A DNA stretch of 45,213 bases from Verrucomicrobiales bacterium (lineage in GTDB: Bacteria; Verrucomicrobiota; Verrucomicrobiia; Verrucomicrobiales; DEV007), in NCBI GenBank assembly GCA_029213065.1, contig JARGPH010000037.1, positions 10,215 to 55,427 of the forward strand, given 5' to 3'. A model generated the notes under the pieces. It was not told where the DNA came from. It searched no databases and worked only from the letters and a program-made list of their open reading frames with translations. Both the position numbers and the translations under genes were made by a program. Shown piece by piece: positions 14,874 through 21,970 of the stretch; the first letter of the stretch is position 1, and the number at the start of each line of letters is the position of its first letter.

Positions 14874-17800
14874 ATGACTTTAAAGCTCGTAGTGACAACC
14901 AACGTCAACGGTGACGTATTTGAACTTGTCCTCAAGAACGCAAAATACGGCGTTGGGCGCCGTCATGACAATGATTTGCGCATTAAGGAAACCTATATCT
15001 CGGGATATCATGCAGAGCTGAACCGCAACAGCGATGGAGACTACGAGCTGAGCGATCTCGGTTCGAGTAATGGCACCTTTCTGAACGGCAAGAAGGTAGA
15101 GGGTCGCGAAATCGTCAAAGCAGGCGATTTCGTGAAATTTGGGATTCTCAAAGTTGCGGTAGCAGAACACACCGGAAGAAGTCCCAAGGTGGTTTCGCTG
15201 AAAGACCGGGCAGCATTTTCGAGAAAGTCGGAGGGCGCAACCTCTTCAATCACTCCTGAGAGCAGCACAGGCCTCGTTGGAACTCTGGATTCCCCCGCCC
15301 CCTCGCCAGTGGGAGGCAAAGGTAAGGAAGGCCCGTCCCCCGACGATTCAGCCATTGCAGAACTGAAAGCGCAGCTCAAAAAGACAGAGGAGCGTGCCGA
15401 TAAGCTGGACAAAGAAGTCGCGAAGCGAAACGAAGAAGTTAAATCGCTCAACGCTGAAATCGCCGATGCTAAAGCCACTGCGGAGAATGCCAACTCCGAG
15501 TTGAAAGTATCGGAGAAGGATGGTGACAAAGTGAGCGAGTTAGAGGCGAAACTCGCGGAACTGTCTTCAGAGGTTGAAGAAAATAAGAACAAATCATCTG
15601 ATCTCGCCAAACAGCTCGCCACGGCAACCGCCGCACTCGCAGCCGCCGAGAAACTTTCATCGAAGGAATCTTCAGACAAAGAAGAAACCGCGAAGGAATT
15701 GTCTGAAGCCCGCAGGGAATTGGAAACAATCACAGCGGAGAAGGTCAAACTGGAGGAAAAGCTGGCTTCGAACGAGAACGCTCAGGCGTCTTCCAGCGAA
15801 GCGGCATCGAAAGAGCTGACCAGTGCCAGAGACGAAGCAGAATCACTCCGCAAGCAACTCGCCGAGCGCGAAAAAGCGGAAGCAGACCTCAACAGCAAAC
15901 TTTCCGAGACCGCGAAATCCGGTGAGACCCGGATCGCGGAGCTCGAGTCCAGTCTCAAAGCATCCGAGGCAAAGGCCGATGAACTTGAACAGTCGCTCGA
16001 AAAATCGAAGAGCGAAGTTGGCGACTCCTCAAGCGCTCTCCAAAATCGCGACAAGGAGATCGAGAACTTGAAGTCTCTACTCGCCGAGCGCGAAAAAACG
16101 GAAGCAGACCTCAACAGCAAACTTTCCGACACCGCGAAATCCGGCGAGACCCGTATCGCGGAGCTCGAATCCAGTCTTCAGGCAGCTGAATCAAAGACAA
16201 CTGAACTGGAACAGTCACTGGAGGAAGCGACAGGCGCTCTCAATGACAAACTCGCCAGGGCAGAAGCGGAAGCCGCAAGCAAAGCCGACAGTGAAGCGAA
16301 GGCTCTCGAGCAAATCACTCAACTTACCGCTGAATCCGAGGCGTTGAAGAAGAGCCTCAGCGGAAAGGATTCCGACCTGAAAGCCACTGCAGCCGAAGCA
16401 GCGAAAGTGGCGGCCTTGACGGCGACCATTGCTTCGCTGACGAATGATCGCGACAAGGTAAAAGAGGAAGTAAGAAAGACGACACTTTCACTGAAAGAGT
16501 CAGAGAAGTCCTCCAAAGCAGCGCAAAAGGACCTCGAAGCGAAACTCAAAGCGGTCGAAAAAGAGAATCTCAAACTCAGCAAAGCCGCCGAAAAATCTGA
16601 AGCAACACTCTCCAGTCAGCAGGCCGAGGTCGTCACCTTGAAAGCCGATCTCTCAGAAAAAAGCAAAGTCGCACTGTCTGCATCAAAAGACGCCGCCCGC
16701 CTTACCGCTCTGACAACTGAGTTGGAAGACCTCAAAGGAGAGCTTGAAGCAACCCGCACAAAACTCGACGAGACCACCGCCGCTGAAACATCGGCAAAGG
16801 AGGACGCTCTGGCAAAAGAAGCGGAAGTGGCTGACTTATACGGAAAGCTCGAAACGCTTACTGAAGAGCAGACCACGGAGATCGAGAAACTGAAGACTGA
16901 GCTTGAGGAGGCGAAGTCCGAAAAGGAGCAGACCGTTTCAGCTTTGTCCAAAATCGAAAAGGAGAAAGCAACACTCGAGTCAGGTGCTGAATCTGAAATC
17001 GACGCCCTCCGGAAAGAACTGGACGAAGCACGGGCCGAGCTGAAATCAAAAGACGCGACGGTTTCCTCTGTTGAGAAAGAACTTTCCGAGACACGCGACA
17101 AATTGACGTCCACAGGGACAGAGCACTCGAACACTCTCGCTGAGATTGCCGCACTGACTCTGGCTCTCAAATCAGCAGAGACTGAGCGGGACAATCTCGC
17201 CCGGGTAGAGACTGAGCTCCAATCGACAAGGGATGAGCAAACGAAGCTCCTCGAGGAACGTGATGCTTTGCAGACAGCGCTGAAGGATGCAGAAGCGACC
17301 CGCGCCGAACTTGAGACGACGCAAGAGCGACTCAAACAGATTGAGGAGGAACGAGAATCGCTCTCAGAATCGCTTTCCGAACTGAAAGAAGCCGGTTCGA
17401 ACAGCGAAGAGAAGGCGGCCGAACTTTCCACCAAACTCAGTTCCGTTGAAGGCGATCTGGCGTCTGCAAGAGAGCAACTTGAGAACGATGCCAAGGCACT
17501 TGCCGCAGCAAAATCCGAATCAAACGCACTCAGAGTCGACCTGAAACGCGTAAAAGATTCAGCGAACCAGTCCGCCGAGGAAATTGAGAAAACTCTCACC
17601 TCAGAGCTGGAGGCGTCCACTCGCGAGTTGGCCTTAACAAGGGAAAGAGCGACGAGGGCTGAGGCTGACTTGAAGGCGGTCACCGAAGAGAAAAAAACGC
17701 TGTCCGCTGATGCAGAAAAGACCAGAGAAGAAGCGCTGCGACTCAAAACCCATCACGATGACCTTTCGAGAAACCTCGGCCGACTTCAGGCTGAGTTGAG

Positions 17801-20087
17801 CCAGGAAAGCGTTAGCAAGTCGCAGCTGGAGAAAGATCTCGAAACCGCTCGCGCGAAAAACACCCAGCTCCTCACCGAGTCCGAAAACCTGCAGGAAGCG
17901 CTGGAGGTAAAGAAACGAGAGCTTGCTGAAAAAGATCAGGAACACGCCCGCAACGAGAGCGATACGGTTCAGCAACTGAAACGCCAATTGGGAGATACCG
18001 AAGCGAATCTCAAGAGTATCGAAGAGAAATCTTCTCAGTTACTGAAAGAGAAGCTTTCGCTGAGCGGAGCATTCGAACGGCTCAAAGAGCAACTTTCCAG
18101 CAGTGAGATAGCGGCCGGAGAAAGCGCGGCCAGAGAGGAAGAACTGGTGCACAGCAAAAGCGCACTCGCCCGACGTCTTGAGAAAGCAGAGGCAAGCAAC
18201 AGCGAACTGGCCGCAAGGATCAAAGAGGAAGCGACGGCCTCACTCGCCAATCGGAATCTTGTCGAGAAACTGGAACTTCAAATTCGCGAGGACGAATCCG
18301 AAGCGGTTGCAGAAGAGCAGGCAATCAATCGCGAGCTCGAAAAGGAAATCCGATCTCTGAAACGGGAAGCAAACGAAGACGAAAGAGTCCGCGACGGGCT
18401 TCAGGCTGATTTGAATGCGCTGCAGGAGGAAAAGCGAATCGTGGATGAGAGAATCCTCGCTGCGGACGAACAGATACTCGAGAATGAGAGTGCACTCACT
18501 TCGATGAGATCTCTTCTCGAAGAGAATGAGAAAAAGCGCTCCGAACTCGTGTCTGAACTGGCAGACAGCAGGGCCTTGTCGGCCAATCACGAAAAGATCG
18601 CCGGTGAGTTGCGTGAAGAACTTGCCTCCACGATCACCCGGTTTCAAACCAATGAAGCAGAGCTTCTGCGGAAGCACGGAGCGGAAATTGACGCACTCGT
18701 GGCAGAAGTCCGATCCGAGAAAGACGCAAAAGAAAAACTGGCAACAGAATTGGAAAACACCCGCGTTGGACTTTCCGAGGCACTTCGCCATTCCCGTGAG
18801 GAGAGCGAGCGGGCTCAGACCAAACTGATCGCGGAAGGAAATGCGAAACTCTCCAGGGTCGAAGACGAGCTCAGCGCTGTCATTCAGTCGCGCAGCGAGA
18901 TCGAAAAACTCCGGAACGAACTTGAGGATGCTTTGAATGATCGTGATGAGAACATCGAAAAACTCTCCGAACACATCGAAGATCTGGAGCTGCAACTGAA
19001 AGACGAGCAGGAATCACGCAATGGAGTTCTTACAGATCTCGACACGACACGAGCCGGATTTTCCTCAGCGCTTCAATCAAACTGGAATCACCTGAGCGAA
19101 GCGAGAGCCTTCCTCGACGAAGAGAAAAATTCCAGACTGAATGCTGAAAAAGAGGGCAGTGATTTGCGAAGCAAACTTGAAGCGCTTCGCGAAGAGTCCA
19201 AAGCGAATCGGGAACGCTATGAAGAAGAAATCCGCAATTGGGAAGATCGCTACGATTCGCTTCGCGAAGAGAAACTGACCCTGGCGAGCGAAGATGCGAA
19301 CCTTCAAAAAGTCCGCGAACAGATCCTTGAAGCGACCACTCAAAAACGTGAGATCGAAGACGAACTTACGAAGCTCACCGGGGAAATGTCCACTTACGAG
19401 GAAAGACATCACGATTTAAAATCGCAGACCGAGAAGCTCGTGAGCGAGCGTGAGGAGCTGAAGGCCGGTCTCAATAAGGGTCGCAATGAACTCGAGGCCC
19501 TCCAGAAACGAGCTTCCAATTCCGCACAGCAGGAGAAAAAGCTCACCGACACAATTCGTTCTGCGGAAGGCCGAATTGAGTCCTTGAAGAAGCTGGAAGG
19601 CCAGATGGAGCAAATCGTTGAGAGAAAGCGTCAGGAGAATATTCTCAGCCGCAGTGGCGTCTTCAGCGACAATGCCGAAGCAGTTATCCTGAACGGCGAC
19701 TTCTCACAGGAGGAATTCTATAAAAAGCTCATCGGGAAACTGGATCTACTCGACGATCTCACGAAGCGATACGACAACAAGTGGCGCTATCCTAAAGTGG
19801 CGGATCAGTTGAACCTGTTGAAACGCAGCTTTCTCGACTTTTTGCAGGATCATTCAGTCAATCAATTCGATCTTGAGCCCGGCACGGTGCTCTCTGTGGA
19901 ACAGAGAAAACGCATCAAACTGGTTCCGGTCCACGAAATGATCGGTAAGAAACCGATCACAAACGGAAGCGGTAACGGCAGGAATGGAGGATCTTCCAAA
20001 GTCATCGAAACCGTGAGACCCGGCTACGTTTACCGGATTGGATCGCGCGACGTCGTGATTCGAAAGGCGGAGGTCGTAGTCGCCTAG
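14874..20087 (+). CDS. Giant FHA-coiled-coil protein with GrpE-like C-terminus
   Basis: The 1737-residue protein has three parts. Residues about 5-95 form an FHA domain, which binds phosphothreonine peptides: GVGRR (26-30), YISGYHAEL (41-49), LGSSNGTFLNGKKV (62-75). A Pro/Gly/Ser linker follows, then about 1400 residues of nearly uninterrupted coiled coil rich in E, K, A, L and S. The last 120 residues differ. YKKLIGKLDLLDDL and LLKRSFLDFLQDH resemble the GrpE helix bundle, and the end, IETVRPGYVYRIGSRDVV...AEVVVA, closely resembles the GrpE beta-wing. GrpE is the nucleotide-exchange factor of Hsp70, and an Hsp70 gene follows 107 bp downstream. I infer a chaperone exchange factor on a very long stalk with a phospho-sensing head. 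It has no signal peptide or membrane segment. Confidence 0.85.
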   Translation: MTLKLVVTTNVNGDVFELVLKNAKYGVGRRHDNDLRIKETYISGYHAELNRNSDGDYELSDLGSSNGTFLNGKKVEGREIVKAGDFVKFGILKVAVAEHTGRSPKVVSLKDRAAFSRKSEGATSSITPESSTGLVGTLDSPAPSPVGGKGKEGPSPDDSAIAELKAQLKKTEERADKLDKEVAKRNEEVKSLNAEIADAKATAENANSELKVSEKDGDKVSELEAKLAELSSEVEENKNKSSDLAKQLATATAALAAAEKLSSKESSDKEETAKELSEARRELETITAEKVKLEEKLASNENAQASSSEAASKELTSARDEAESLRKQLAEREKAEADLNSKLSETAKSGETRIAELESSLKASEAKADELEQSLEKSKSEVGDSSSALQNRDKEIENLKSLLAEREKTEADLNSKLSDTAKSGETRIAELESSLQAAESKTTELEQSLEEATGALNDKLARAEAEAASKADSEAKALEQITQLTAESEALKKSLSGKDSDLKATAAEAAKVAALTATIASLTNDRDKVKEEVRKTTLSLKESEKSSKAAQKDLEAKLKAVEKENLKLSKAAEKSEATLSSQQAEVVTLKADLSEKSKVALSASKDAARLTALTTELEDLKGELEATRTKLDETTAAETSAKEDALAKEAEVADLYGKLETLTEEQTTEIEKLKTELEEAKSEKEQTVSALSKIEKEKATLESGAESEIDALRKELDEARAELKSKDATVSSVEKELSETRDKLTSTGTEHSNTLAEIAALTLALKSAETERDNLARVETELQSTRDEQTKLLEERDALQTALKDAEATRAELETTQERLKQIEEERESLSESLSELKEAGSNSEEKAAELSTKLSSVEGDLASAREQLENDAKALAAAKSESNALRVDLKRVKDSANQSAEEIEKTLTSELEASTRELALTRERATRAEADLKAVTEEKKTLSADAEKTREEALRLKTHHDDLSRNLGRLQAELSQESVSKSQLEKDLETARAKNTQLLTESENLQEALEVKKRELAEKDQEHARNESDTVQQLKRQLGDTEANLKSIEEKSSQLLKEKLSLSGAFERLKEQLSSSEIAAGESAAREEELVHSKSALARRLEKAEASNSELAARIKEEATASLANRNLVEKLELQIREDESEAVAEEQAINRELEKEIRSLKREANEDERVRDGLQADLNALQEEKRIVDERILAADEQILENESALTSMRSLLEENEKKRSELVSELADSRALSANHEKIAGELREELASTITRFQTNEAELLRKHGAEIDALVAEVRSEKDAKEKLATELENTRVGLSEALRHSREESERAQTKLIAEGNAKLSRVEDELSAVIQSRSEIEKLRNELEDALNDRDENIEKLSEHIEDLELQLKDEQESRNGVLTDLDTTRAGFSSALQSNWNHLSEARAFLDEEKNSRLNAEKEGSDLRSKLEALREESKANRERYEEEIRNWEDRYDSLREEKLTLASEDANLQKVREQILEATTQKREIEDELTKLTGEMSTYEERHHDLKSQTEKLVSEREELKAGLNKGRNELEALQKRASNSAQQEKKLTDTIRSAEGRIESLKKLEGQMEQIVERKRQENILSRSGVFSDNAEAVILNGDFSQEEFYKKLIGKLDLLDDLTKRYDNKWRYPKVADQLNLLKRSFLDFLQDHSVNQFDLEPGTVLSVEQRKRIKLVPVHEMIGKKPITNGSGNGRNGGSSKVIETVRPGYVYRIGSRDVVIRKAEVVVA
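15858..16177 (+). repeat. Internal 98-bp tandem-spaced repeat in the coiled-coil gene
   Basis: Bases 15858-15955 and 16080-16177 are almost identical with an offset of 222 bp (74 codons). They encode LAEREKAEADLNSKLSETAK and LAEREKTEADLNSKLSDTAK and the residues after them. The few mismatches are scattered and the frame is kept, which points to a fairly recent internal duplication of a coiled-coil segment. Confidence 0.85.
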
Positions 20088-20194: not shown

Positions 20195-21694
20195 ATGTCA
20201 GACTCTTATCCTAAATATGTCGGAATCGATCTGGGCACAAGTACCTCGGCCCTGGCTCATGTACGCTCCGATGGCAATCCTGAGATCGTCCCCAACGCGG
20301 ACGGCGAACGACTCACTCCCTCAGTCGTCTTCTTCGATCAGTTTGAGGGGGTAAAGCTGATTGGGTCATCGGCAAAGGACGGCGGAGATCCTGAGAGGAC
20401 CGTCCGCCACATCAAAAAGCACATGGATGACCCGTCCTACGTGGTCGAAATCGACGGCGAGAGATGGACTCCAACTGAGATTTCCGCGTTGATTCTTTCG
20501 AAGCTCAGAAAAGAGTGTTCAAAGCTGATCGGAGACATCCAGGATGTGGTCATCACTGTTCCGGCCAACTTCAATGAACTCGCAAGAAAGGCCACTGTGA
20601 CAGCGGGAAAACTCGCAGGGCTGAATGTAAAGAGGATCGTCAACGAACCAACCGCGGCAGCGCTCTACTACGCTCACACCAAGGCGATAAAAGGCCGCGT
20701 TCTCGTCTACGACCTCGGAGGGGGAACGCTTGATATCACGATTCTCGACATCGAGGGCGACGCGGTGGATATCCTTCTCAGCGAAGGGGCGCGCCATTTG
20801 GGAGGTTCCAACTTCGATGACATCCTCATCGATCTCATCGGCCAGAAATACCGGGAGCAGAACGGGAAAGAACTTATTTTAAGCGATGTCCAGAGACGGC
20901 GGCTTCTATCCACGACTGAAGACACGAAAAAGCGTCTCTCCAAACTCAACATGGTGTCGGAGAAAATAGGCGGGGAGGATTTCGGTCTCGCCGAAGTTGA
21001 ACTGACCCGTGACTCATTCGAAGATGCCATTCGCAGACTTCTGACAAGAACGGTCATGCTCGTCGAACAGGCGCTCGAGAACCTTGACCTCCTCCCTTCC
21101 GATATCGATCACGTCGTTCTCGTAGGCGGTTCAACGCGGATCCCCAAAGTTCAAACGCTGCTCGAAAAGCAATTTGGCAGACCACCTATTTCCTGCGGGA
21201 ATGTTGATGAATGCGTCGCCCTTGGAGCGGCACTTTTCGCTCAACGTGCCCGTCGCGTTTCCGAGGTCTGCAATCACAGCTACGGTACACTTGCGATCAT
21301 TGAGGATGCCGCGACCGGTGTCGCCCGGGTCCAAAACTCGGTAGTCATTCCGAAGAACACTCCCATTCCCTGCTCGATGTCCCAAACCTACGTGACATCT
21401 GAAGACAACGAAGAACTCATTGAGGTCGAGATCACTCAGGGCGAAGACCTCGATCCCCGCTACATTGATGTTCTCGGAAAAATTACCCTTCGCGTTCCTC
21501 CCGGCCGACCGGCAGGTTGTGAAATCACCGTAACCTACAGCTACGACGAAAACCAGCGTGTCCGCGCGCAGATCTACGATGAATCCTCCGGACTCCGCAA
21601 AGATATTGCGATTGAATATAAGGGAGAAGGCGTCCTCGGTGAGGAGGCGATTGAACGTAAATCAGCTTATCTTAAACAAGTCAAAATTGCATAA
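20195..21694 (+). CDS. Hsp70-family chaperone lacking the C-terminal lid
   Basis: The 499-residue protein has a full ATPase domain: VGIDLGTSTSALA (phosphate 1, residues 9-21), VYDLGGGTLDITI (phosphate 2, 171-183) and VVLVGGSTRIPKV (adenosine site, about 307-319). NEPTAAALYY is also intact. Residues about 370-480 correspond to the beta-sandwich substrate domain. The protein then stops, where DnaK of about 640 residues would continue with the helical lid and tail. Linker and substrate-loop sequences are divergent. This is therefore a specialised Hsp70 rather than housekeeping DnaK. It follows the GrpE-like fusion gene and precedes a small J-like gene by 12 bp, so all three are probably one transcription unit. 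The 107-bp gap before it is AT-rich and may carry an extra promoter. Confidence 0.93.
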   Translation: MSDSYPKYVGIDLGTSTSALAHVRSDGNPEIVPNADGERLTPSVVFFDQFEGVKLIGSSAKDGGDPERTVRHIKKHMDDPSYVVEIDGERWTPTEISALILSKLRKECSKLIGDIQDVVITVPANFNELARKATVTAGKLAGLNVKRIVNEPTAAALYYAHTKAIKGRVLVYDLGGGTLDITILDIEGDAVDILLSEGARHLGGSNFDDILIDLIGQKYREQNGKELILSDVQRRRLLSTTEDTKKRLSKLNMVSEKIGGEDFGLAEVELTRDSFEDAIRRLLTRTVMLVEQALENLDLLPSDIDHVVLVGGSTRIPKVQTLLEKQFGRPPISCGNVDECVALGAALFAQRARRVSEVCNHSYGTLAIIEDAATGVARVQNSVVIPKNTPIPCSMSQTYVTSEDNEELIEVEITQGEDLDPRYIDVLGKITLRVPPGRPAGCEITVTYSYDENQRVRAQIYDESSGLRKDIAIEYKGEGVLGEEAIERKSAYLKQVKIA

Positions 21695-21706
21695 CCATTT
21701 CAGATT

Positions 21707-21970
21707 ATGATCAAGAAATTCTTTAAATGGCTCGCCCCGTCGGCGAAAGAGATCAATCCCCAGGTAGGCGGGATTTTCGGAAACATGACCCCGGAGGCCT
21801 TGTGCGGAATCGACCCCTCCCAAATGGACAAAGAGGAAATACGCAAGCAACTGGCAATGCTGTATAAAAGACACAACCAGGCGGCGAGTTCCTTAAACGA
21901 AGACCTCCGCGAAGAAGCCGAGGAAATGCTCGATGCCATTGTTCATTGCCGGGAAAAATACGTCGACTGA
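21707..21970 (+). CDS. Small helical protein, degenerate J-domain-like (tentative)
   Basis: The 87-residue protein starts MIKKFFKWLAPSAKEINPQV. Its second half, MDKEEIRKQLAMLYKRHNQA and then REEAEEMLDAIVHCREKYVD, has the spacing of helices II and III of a J-domain. The loop carries His56-Asn57-Gln58 where J-domains have His-Pro-Asp. A protein with this change would not be expected to stimulate Hsp70 in the usual way, but it could still bind it. The gene begins 12 bp after the Hsp70 stop and is almost certainly co-translated. The fold assignment is my inference from pattern and context; it could be an unrelated small helical adaptor. Confidence 0.75.
   Translation: MIKKFFKWLAPSAKEINPQVGGIFGNMTPEALCGIDPSQMDKEEIRKQLAMLYKRHNQAASSLNEDLREEAEEMLDAIVHCREKYVD

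Follow-up and report, generated by a model that had tools for sequence, protein, structure and literature searches.

Why should a GrpE domain form the end of a protein of 1737 residues that begins with an FHA domain? Bacterial GrpE is usually regarded as a small soluble housekeeping factor. The question is raised by a gene in a 45,213-nucleotide stretch of a Verrucomicrobiales bacterium (assembly GCA_029213065.1, contig JARGPH010000037.1, positions 10,215 to 55,427 of the forward strand). The whole of this stretch is denoted the window, and its coordinates are used below unless a locus is named. The gene encodes an FHA–coiled coil–GrpE protein (14874..20087, + strand) and is followed by genes for a DnaK-like Hsp70 without a lid and for a small, predicted helical protein. 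We found that the three genes form a lineage-specific cassette, and we propose, with a probability of roughly 0.6, that the large protein is a phospho-addressed nucleotide-exchange factor serving a dedicated Hsp70 machine that is specific to the lineage.

An FHA head and a divergent GrpE tail in one protein

The open reading frame (ORF) starts with ATG and is free of internal stops, in agreement with the initial annotation, which had been made from the sequence alone. Its FHA domain (residues 27-90; 14952..15143, + strand) matched Pfam PF00498 with an E-value of 1.5e-16 when the whole protein was searched, and of 2.2e-18 (66.9 bits) when the head was searched alone. The head carries G28, R29, S43, H46, and N71, so that the FHA signature (GR, SxxH, NG) read by the initial annotation at the N-terminus was recovered by both profile and residues. 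In an alignment of 24 heads, from which paralogues and heads cut by a contig end were left out, G28, R29, S43, H46, D61, S64, G67, and N71 were all invariant. Among them are the phosphothreonine-binding positions of FHA domains, a role held by G28, R29, S43, H46, and N71. Based on this homology, the head is a putative phosphothreonine-binding domain. It also matched the FhaB and OdhI families, with scores below the family cut-offs.

The tail is a divergent GrpE, as judged by profiles and predicted fold. The domain (residues 1552-1737; 19527..20084, + strand) comprises a helix, a two-helix bundle part, and the beta-wing (residues 1709-1737, RPGY ... RKAEV; 19998..20084, + strand), of which the initial annotation had quoted residues 1711-1737. 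The last 244 residues scored 28.0 bits against Pfam PF01025 (cut-off 25.8), covering profile positions 4-164 of 165, and the last 185 residues scored 28.2 bits. The coil-free last 130 residues scored 24.8 bits (E 2e-5), just under the cut-off, with PF01025 as the sole family at E ≤ 0.1. PF01025 was matched at E ≤ 0.01 by 24 of 26 tails of the family. When a profile built from the 26 tails was searched against the PDB, E. coli GrpE (1dkg) was found at E 3e-8, mainly over its helical part, and the next chain at 0.15. An hhalign comparison of the tails with canonical GrpEs of the order (19 rows of 22 loci; L085, L092, and L094 left out) gave a probability of 92 and an E-value of 5.9e-7 over the last helix and the beta-wing, whereas the negative control, the FHA alignment, gave a probability of 0.1. 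Furthermore, the beta-wing of the tails has one invariant G and one invariant R, and both fall on the G and R that are invariant in canonical GrpEs.

The AlphaFold model of the tail (single chain, five-sequence alignment) shows a helix, two helices, and a beta-wing in the order of GrpE, with the strands of the beta-wing at model residues 220-247. In a Foldseek search with this model, each of the first 12 rows was a GrpE entry or a GrpE-Hsp70 complex; E was ≤ 0.001 for three of these rows and 0.25 for the twelfth. By VIA, the model aligned with 1dkg at Z 11.5 (2.7 Å over 98 residues), compared with Z 6.3 for the best unrelated row and just 5.8 for Thermus GrpE. The GrpE-like tail suspected by the initial annotation was therefore upheld by both profile and predicted structure. 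From homology, the tail is a putative module for Hsp70 binding and release of adenosine diphosphate (ADP). The idea that the ORF is coil-rich by chance and its GrpE match spurious draws on the fact that coils match many coil families weakly, but it is refuted by the results and keeps next to no probability: the coil-free segment of the window protein matches GrpE and no other family, the predicted structure agrees, and conservation of the arrangement extends across the order.

A lineage-specific three-gene cassette

The gene for the partner Hsp70 (20195..21694, + strand) starts 107 bases downstream of the FHA-GrpE ORF and is followed by the third gene of the cassette (21707..21967, + strand). 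An orthologue of this Hsp70 (E ≤ 1e-90) was found in 89 of the 189 genomes of the order, representing 24 of 43 genera, and was single-copy in 88 of the 89 genomes possessing it. Gene order was read in 89 Hsp70 loci from 88 genomes, with two loci from G029; this set leaves out the window and the partial Hsp70 hits in two genomes (G306, G253) and includes G008 and G012. Three loci with an FHA-GrpE ORF but no Hsp70 in the stretch (L057, L065, L069) lie outside this set. An intact FHA-GrpE ORF was located directly upstream on the same strand in 61 of the 89 loci, with 29-241 nucleotides between the stop of the tail and the start of Hsp70 similarity. Among the remaining loci, the tail ORF was cut by a contig end in eight and split in three, and FHA and coil alone were recognisable in two. 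No FHA-GrpE ORF was found in 15 loci, four of which had less than 3.6 kb of upstream sequence. The third gene was present in 85 of the 89 loci, and the four misses had 416 nucleotides or less downstream.

Some genomes without an FHA-GrpE ORF beside the Hsp70 had a tail on another contig (G037, G052, G246, G264, G276, G281, G304, G317, G330). It should be noted that the Hsp70 contig of G264 stops at the gene. In G251, G254, G257, G261, and G263, which also have no such ORF beside the Hsp70, the genome gave no tail match at E ≤ 1e-10.

Across the 189 genomes, the Hsp70 was found in 89, a strong tail in 91, the small gene in 92, and the complete set in 81. A strong tail was defined as one of 100 bits or more, a threshold of our own set post hoc, below which 11 of the 102 genomes with a match at E ≤ 1e-10 fall. 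Strong tails occurred in 82 of the 89 genomes with the Hsp70 versus 9 of the 100 without it. With E ≤ 1e-10 as the sole criterion and no bit cut-off, a tail occurred in 82 of the 89 and in 20 of the 100; the additional ones were shorter paralogues or weak matches. Since the order is conserved in 61 of the 89 loci and all three genes occur in 81 of the 189 genomes, the FHA-coil-GrpE gene, the lidless DnaK-like Hsp70, and the gene for the small helical protein are a lineage-specific cassette. The initial annotation had named two observations that would refute it, a tail without a GrpE match and the absence of the FHA-to-GrpE order from related genomes. Neither applies, as the tail matches GrpE and the order recurs in the 61 other loci. 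The adjacent Hsp70, which it had suggested as a partner, is a conserved one by both adjacency and co-occurrence.

The nearest relatives are in Verrucomicrobiales and Akkermansiaceae. When the tail profile was searched over 194 genomes of the phylum at E ≤ 1e-5, four matches were obtained, namely the window's own genome and three others of the same order. At a relaxed threshold of E ≤ 0.5, a further 13 genomes, all from outside the order, gave matches that were short and partial and did not exceed 18.8 bits. Judged by this profile, the cassette is restricted to the order within the 194-genome phylum sample. Apart from the cassette, the window's own genome has a canonical GrpE with DnaJ (contig C26), a DnaK (C7), one more Hsp70 (C78), and one more J-protein (C11), so the cassette represents an extra set.

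A partner Hsp70 without a lid

The partner Hsp70 has 499 residues and scored 333 bits against the Pfam HSP70 family over profile positions 2-509 of 599. It consists of an actin-like nucleotide-binding domain, with the phosphate loops present, and the beta part of the substrate-binding domain, after which the sequence stops, leaving no helical lid. At the linker position, DVVLLDVTPLSL in the DnaK of the genome is replaced by EVCNHSYGTLAI in the partner Hsp70, which has no VLLLDV linker. In addition, a stretch of about 20 residues found in the genome's own DnaK is missing from the partner. In the PDB it is nearest to bacterial DnaKs, and the best match was Geobacillus DnaK (2v7y). It is not a DnaK equivalog, with 345 bits versus a cut-off of 648. 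The absence of the lid suggests fast and weak client binding.

G029, a member of the same genus, has a second lidless Hsp70 with the small gene (L127:898-2406), where an ORF of 489 residues, rather than an FHA-GrpE gene, lies upstream.

A long coiled coil of variable length

Between head and tail runs a long coiled coil (residues 164-1590; 15363..19643, + strand) of about 1427 residues with no proline. Its heptad power at a period of 3.5 residues was 0.843, compared with 0.155 ± 0.025 in 200 shuffles. In a simple register fit of our own, both core positions were most often occupied by leucine, and the register was broken at 23 points. A homodimer through the long helix is expected from this heptad pattern. 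If it were one continuous helix, the coil would measure 1427 × 0.1485 = 212 nm, which bears out the arithmetic of the initial annotation (1400 residues, about 200 nm). Given the 23 register breaks, the coil need not be straight, and we regard it as a jointed coil of at most about 212 nm.

The 61 intact orthologues ranged from 276 to 2317 residues, with a median of 1698. The stretch from FHA to tail had at least 700 residues in 56 of them, and two orthologues of one genus (276 and 294 residues) retained FHA and GrpE with practically no coil. The mean identity of 12 orthologues of the genus to the window protein was 75% in the FHA domain, 23% in the N-terminal half of the coil, 42% in its C-terminal half, and 64% in the tail, which makes the two ends the best-kept parts. 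Most lineages have kept the coil long without a fixed length, and its exact length does not look selected. The stalk thus looks like a reach rather than a ruler, and the FHA-GrpE core exists without it. The better-kept C-terminal half may not serve as a spacer alone and perhaps offers further binding sites.

With orthologues spanning 276-2317 residues, a ruler of constant stalk length was rejected. The initial annotation therefore stands in its domains, their order, and the conserved Hsp70 partner, but not in taking the length of the stalk as a defined reach. Recent growth of the coil by tandem repeats at the DNA level was also rejected, as only two arrays were detected, with period 10 and about two copies.

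A small helical protein with a possible J-like fold

The third gene encodes 86 residues in the window, and the 14 aligned products have 86-131 residues with L49, L52, Y53, R55, N57, S62, and L63 among their invariant positions. The model of the product is a predicted helical hairpin. Prompted by this layout of helices, we considered a J-domain protein and rejected it: there was no convincing Pfam or PDB sequence match, and the profile-profile comparison was negative. The HPD motif is absent from the third-gene products, with RHN, RYN, or RFN at the expected place. PF00226 was not listed at E ≤ 10 for any of the 14 products, and an hhalign comparison of the family with 20 J-domains gave a probability of 0.3.

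By VIA, J-domains were the five best rows for the model (6rzy, Z 6.8, 2.2 Å over 60 residues), with unrelated proteins reaching Z 5.8. Chain B of the Tim14-Tim16 complex (2guz) gave Z 5.4; values of Z under 8 may mean a mere common arrangement. The Foldseek result for the model was not significant (E 0.79). The modelled fold thus bears a weak resemblance to J-domains, a possible lead and nothing firmer.

A candidate switch behind the FHA domain

In the linker just C-terminal of the FHA domain, the window protein has a threonine motif, T123-S-S-I (15240..15251, + strand), which by its sequence is a candidate phosphorylation switch. The window protein and the rest of its genus read T-S/A-S/A-I at residue 123; a further large family has GDTES-I/V-P. 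Neither this motif nor the third gene figures in the initial annotation. The pattern T-x-[SATL]-[IVL], which is loose and was set post hoc from the alignment, occurred in 49 of 60 linkers (window included), versus 15.5 expected when each linker was shuffled. Two of the 62 proteins (L132 and L133) were left out of this count because the FHA anchor was not found, and L128, with a misread position, was scored as a miss.

These counts bear on a model of phospho-regulated assembly, in which the FHA domain would read the linker threonine of a neighbouring molecule and thereby form head-to-head chains or bundles with the Hsp70, any other targets being secondary. In its favour are the excess of the motif, the below-cut-off matches of the head to FhaB and OdhI, and the ETTS motif that, according to the accessible part of one paper, is phosphorylated in OdhI/GarA and adjoins the FHA domain there on its N-terminal side (PMC8546545). 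However, the pattern is loose and post hoc, it is missing from 11 of the 60 linkers (one of them the misread L128), and the genomes are related. We consider this model quite improbable.

Proposed mechanism and its main rival

In the reading that we prefer, a phospho-addressed exchange factor, the GrpE helices would continue the coil, so that the protein would form a parallel dimer carrying a pair of FHA heads at its start and a single GrpE dimer at its opposite end. These heads would bind phosphothreonine on a target protein marked by a serine/threonine kinase. Alternatively, they may bind their own phosphorylated linker threonine (around T123), as in OdhI/GarA, giving a switch between a closed and a recruiting state. 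The GrpE end would capture the partner Hsp70 and drive ADP release, and the cycling of Hsp70 would thereby be focused on the marked site or on its reachable surroundings. The coil would provide the reach, and the small helical protein might serve as a J-like modulator. Exchange activity, dimerisation, and phosphothreonine binding are all predicted properties in this scheme. The wider picture would be that Verrucomicrobiales have a second, phospho-addressed Hsp70 system whose exchange factor itself supplies the address. From a stalk of as much as about 200 nm or more, the FHA heads would recognise phosphorylated threonine and bring the lidless Hsp70 and its J-like accessory to that place, coupling serine/threonine kinase signalling directly to chaperone cycling. 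To this picture we give somewhat less than even odds.

Several observations weigh against an addressed exchange factor. The whole protein scored 21.5 bits against PF01025, under the cut-off of 25.8, and phmmer with the last 130 residues as a single sequence found no match in the PDB at E ≤ 1. Among seven coil-free tails, one exceeded the PF01025 cut-off and five scored 21.5-25.5 bits, and for the coil-free tail of L062 GrpE was merely the fourth match, with 15.3 bits. These results indicate a divergent GrpE domain, in which exchange activity could have been lost. The AlphaFold model of the tail is moderate, with a mean predicted local distance difference test score of 78.8 (59-79 over five models) and a predicted template modelling score of 0.40. 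The partner Hsp70 has neither the classical linker nor the lid. Seven Hsp70-bearing genomes have no strong tail, and nine strong tails occur in genomes without the Hsp70. No kinase or phosphorylated target was found, and no search aimed at one was made. In two loci of one genus (L122:2647-5874 and L123:2630-5764), FHA and coil stand beside the Hsp70 and the GrpE tail is unrecognisable (Pfam for L122 only). Finally, the genomes are related, so the counts are not independent and no probability is claimed from them.

Part of this evidence also favours the main rival, a structural scaffold. Here the protein would be a long filament or tether whose GrpE domain docks the Hsp70 without exchange, with the Hsp70 as an ATP-dependent switch or as cargo. 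The long FHA-to-tail stretch of most orthologues, the divergence of the GrpE domain, the lack of lid and classical linker in the Hsp70, and the two genomes with FHA and coil but no recognisable GrpE are consistent with it. On the other hand, the two shortest orthologues drop the coil and retain FHA and GrpE, the tail is conserved above the coil, and the beta-wing keeps the invariant G and R of canonical GrpE. We regard the scaffold as unlikely and favour the addressed exchange factor.

Related genes and genomic neighbours

Two further relatives of the tail were found in the window's own genome. A second, shorter FHA-coil-GrpE protein of 544 residues (contig C1, L070:3931-5565) had no Hsp70 match in the fetched stretch. 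Its gene is followed by one for a 287-residue protein without a Pfam match, a relative of which recurs beside such proteins in four clustered loci. A protein of 196 residues (contig C58, L071:4320-4910) has a hydrophobic segment at its N-terminus and ends in a GrpE-like tail belonging to this family, without FHA; it scored 94 bits against the tail profile and, at E ≤ 0.01, matched no Pfam family.

Another FHA protein (about 215-240 residues in those read) is encoded about 1 kb upstream on the same strand in L140, L142, L144, L145, L148, L151, L154, L160, and L165. In 24 of the 61 intact loci, a divergent ORF for a protein of about 281 residues lies 77-166 nucleotides from the FHA-GrpE gene (e.g., L063:9756-10601). 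In the clustered loci, recurrent neighbours outside the cassette vary among lineages.

We also considered a conflict or defence system resembling the neighbourhoods of GAP1-N2 GTPases. The accessible part of the paper on these neighbourhoods describes HSP70 and GrpE together with DnaJ or TPR proteins, partly with a second HSP70 without the peptide-binding domain (PMC7159879). Against this, PADLOC gave no match for the small protein or the head, one match for the Hsp70, at 13 bits, and, for the tail, coil-type matches that did not exceed 20.7 bits; the recurrent neighbours depend on lineage; and the Hsp70 is single-copy in nearly all genomes possessing it. The tail had no match among plasmids. 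With PADLOC matches so weak and no plasmid match for the tail, a mobile or defence origin was rejected, and we regard a conflict system as very unlikely. GTPase and FNIII partners were not noticed among the recurrent neighbours of the cassette, which were clustered and not profile-annotated.

Comparison with known systems

The tail resembles GrpE (PF01025; E. coli 1dkg; human GrpEL1 9bls) in its topology of helix, bundle, and beta-wing, in the invariant G and R of the beta-wing, and in the position of its gene beside an Hsp70. It differs in being fused to an FHA head, mostly via a coil of 700 to about 2000 residues, in its divergent sequence, and in being additional to a canonical GrpE. The mitochondrial import motor (Mge1, Hsp70, Pam18/Tim14, Pam16/Tim16) is tethered via other subunits and not via its exchange factor, unlike the arrangement proposed here. 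As far as the accessible parts of two papers go, Mge1 belongs to this motor (PMC9695410) and Pam16 is a J-like protein (PMC11349236). The likeness would be a localised Hsp70 with a GrpE-type exchange factor and an HPD-less J-like protein, with the reservation that the J-likeness of the present small gene is weak.

OdhI/GarA and FhaB likewise have an FHA domain with the signature residues, and OdhI/GarA has a threonine-containing motif beside it. In the present protein, the FHA domain scores under the cut-offs of these families and is joined to a coil and a GrpE domain. The motif lies on its C-terminal side, in contrast to the N-terminal position reported for OdhI/GarA in the part of that paper available (PMC8546545). 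The nearest described case that we found is the association of HSP70 with GrpE in GAP1-N2 neighbourhoods, where a second HSP70 also has no peptide-binding domain; no FHA-GrpE fusion is described in the accessible part of that paper (PMC7159879).

No description of an FHA-GrpE fusion or of the three-gene set was found in the open-access literature, where most articles under subscription and preprints on bioRxiv are not covered. Each part is known by itself; the combination is apparently new. GrpE here forms the end of a giant putative phospho-reader protein that is conserved across much of the order with its own lidless Hsp70. If the proposal is true, kinase signalling could direct chaperone action in space, and the natural short versions (276-294 residues) would allow cheap in vitro testing of this idea. 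Eukaryotic BAG-domain proteins join an exchange factor to diverse targeting modules and thereby steer Hsp70 to places. The present cassette would share this targeting-module principle with them, whereas they have an unrelated fold and are eukaryotic. Bacteria would then have arrived independently at the steering of Hsp70 by an exchange factor bound to a targeting module.

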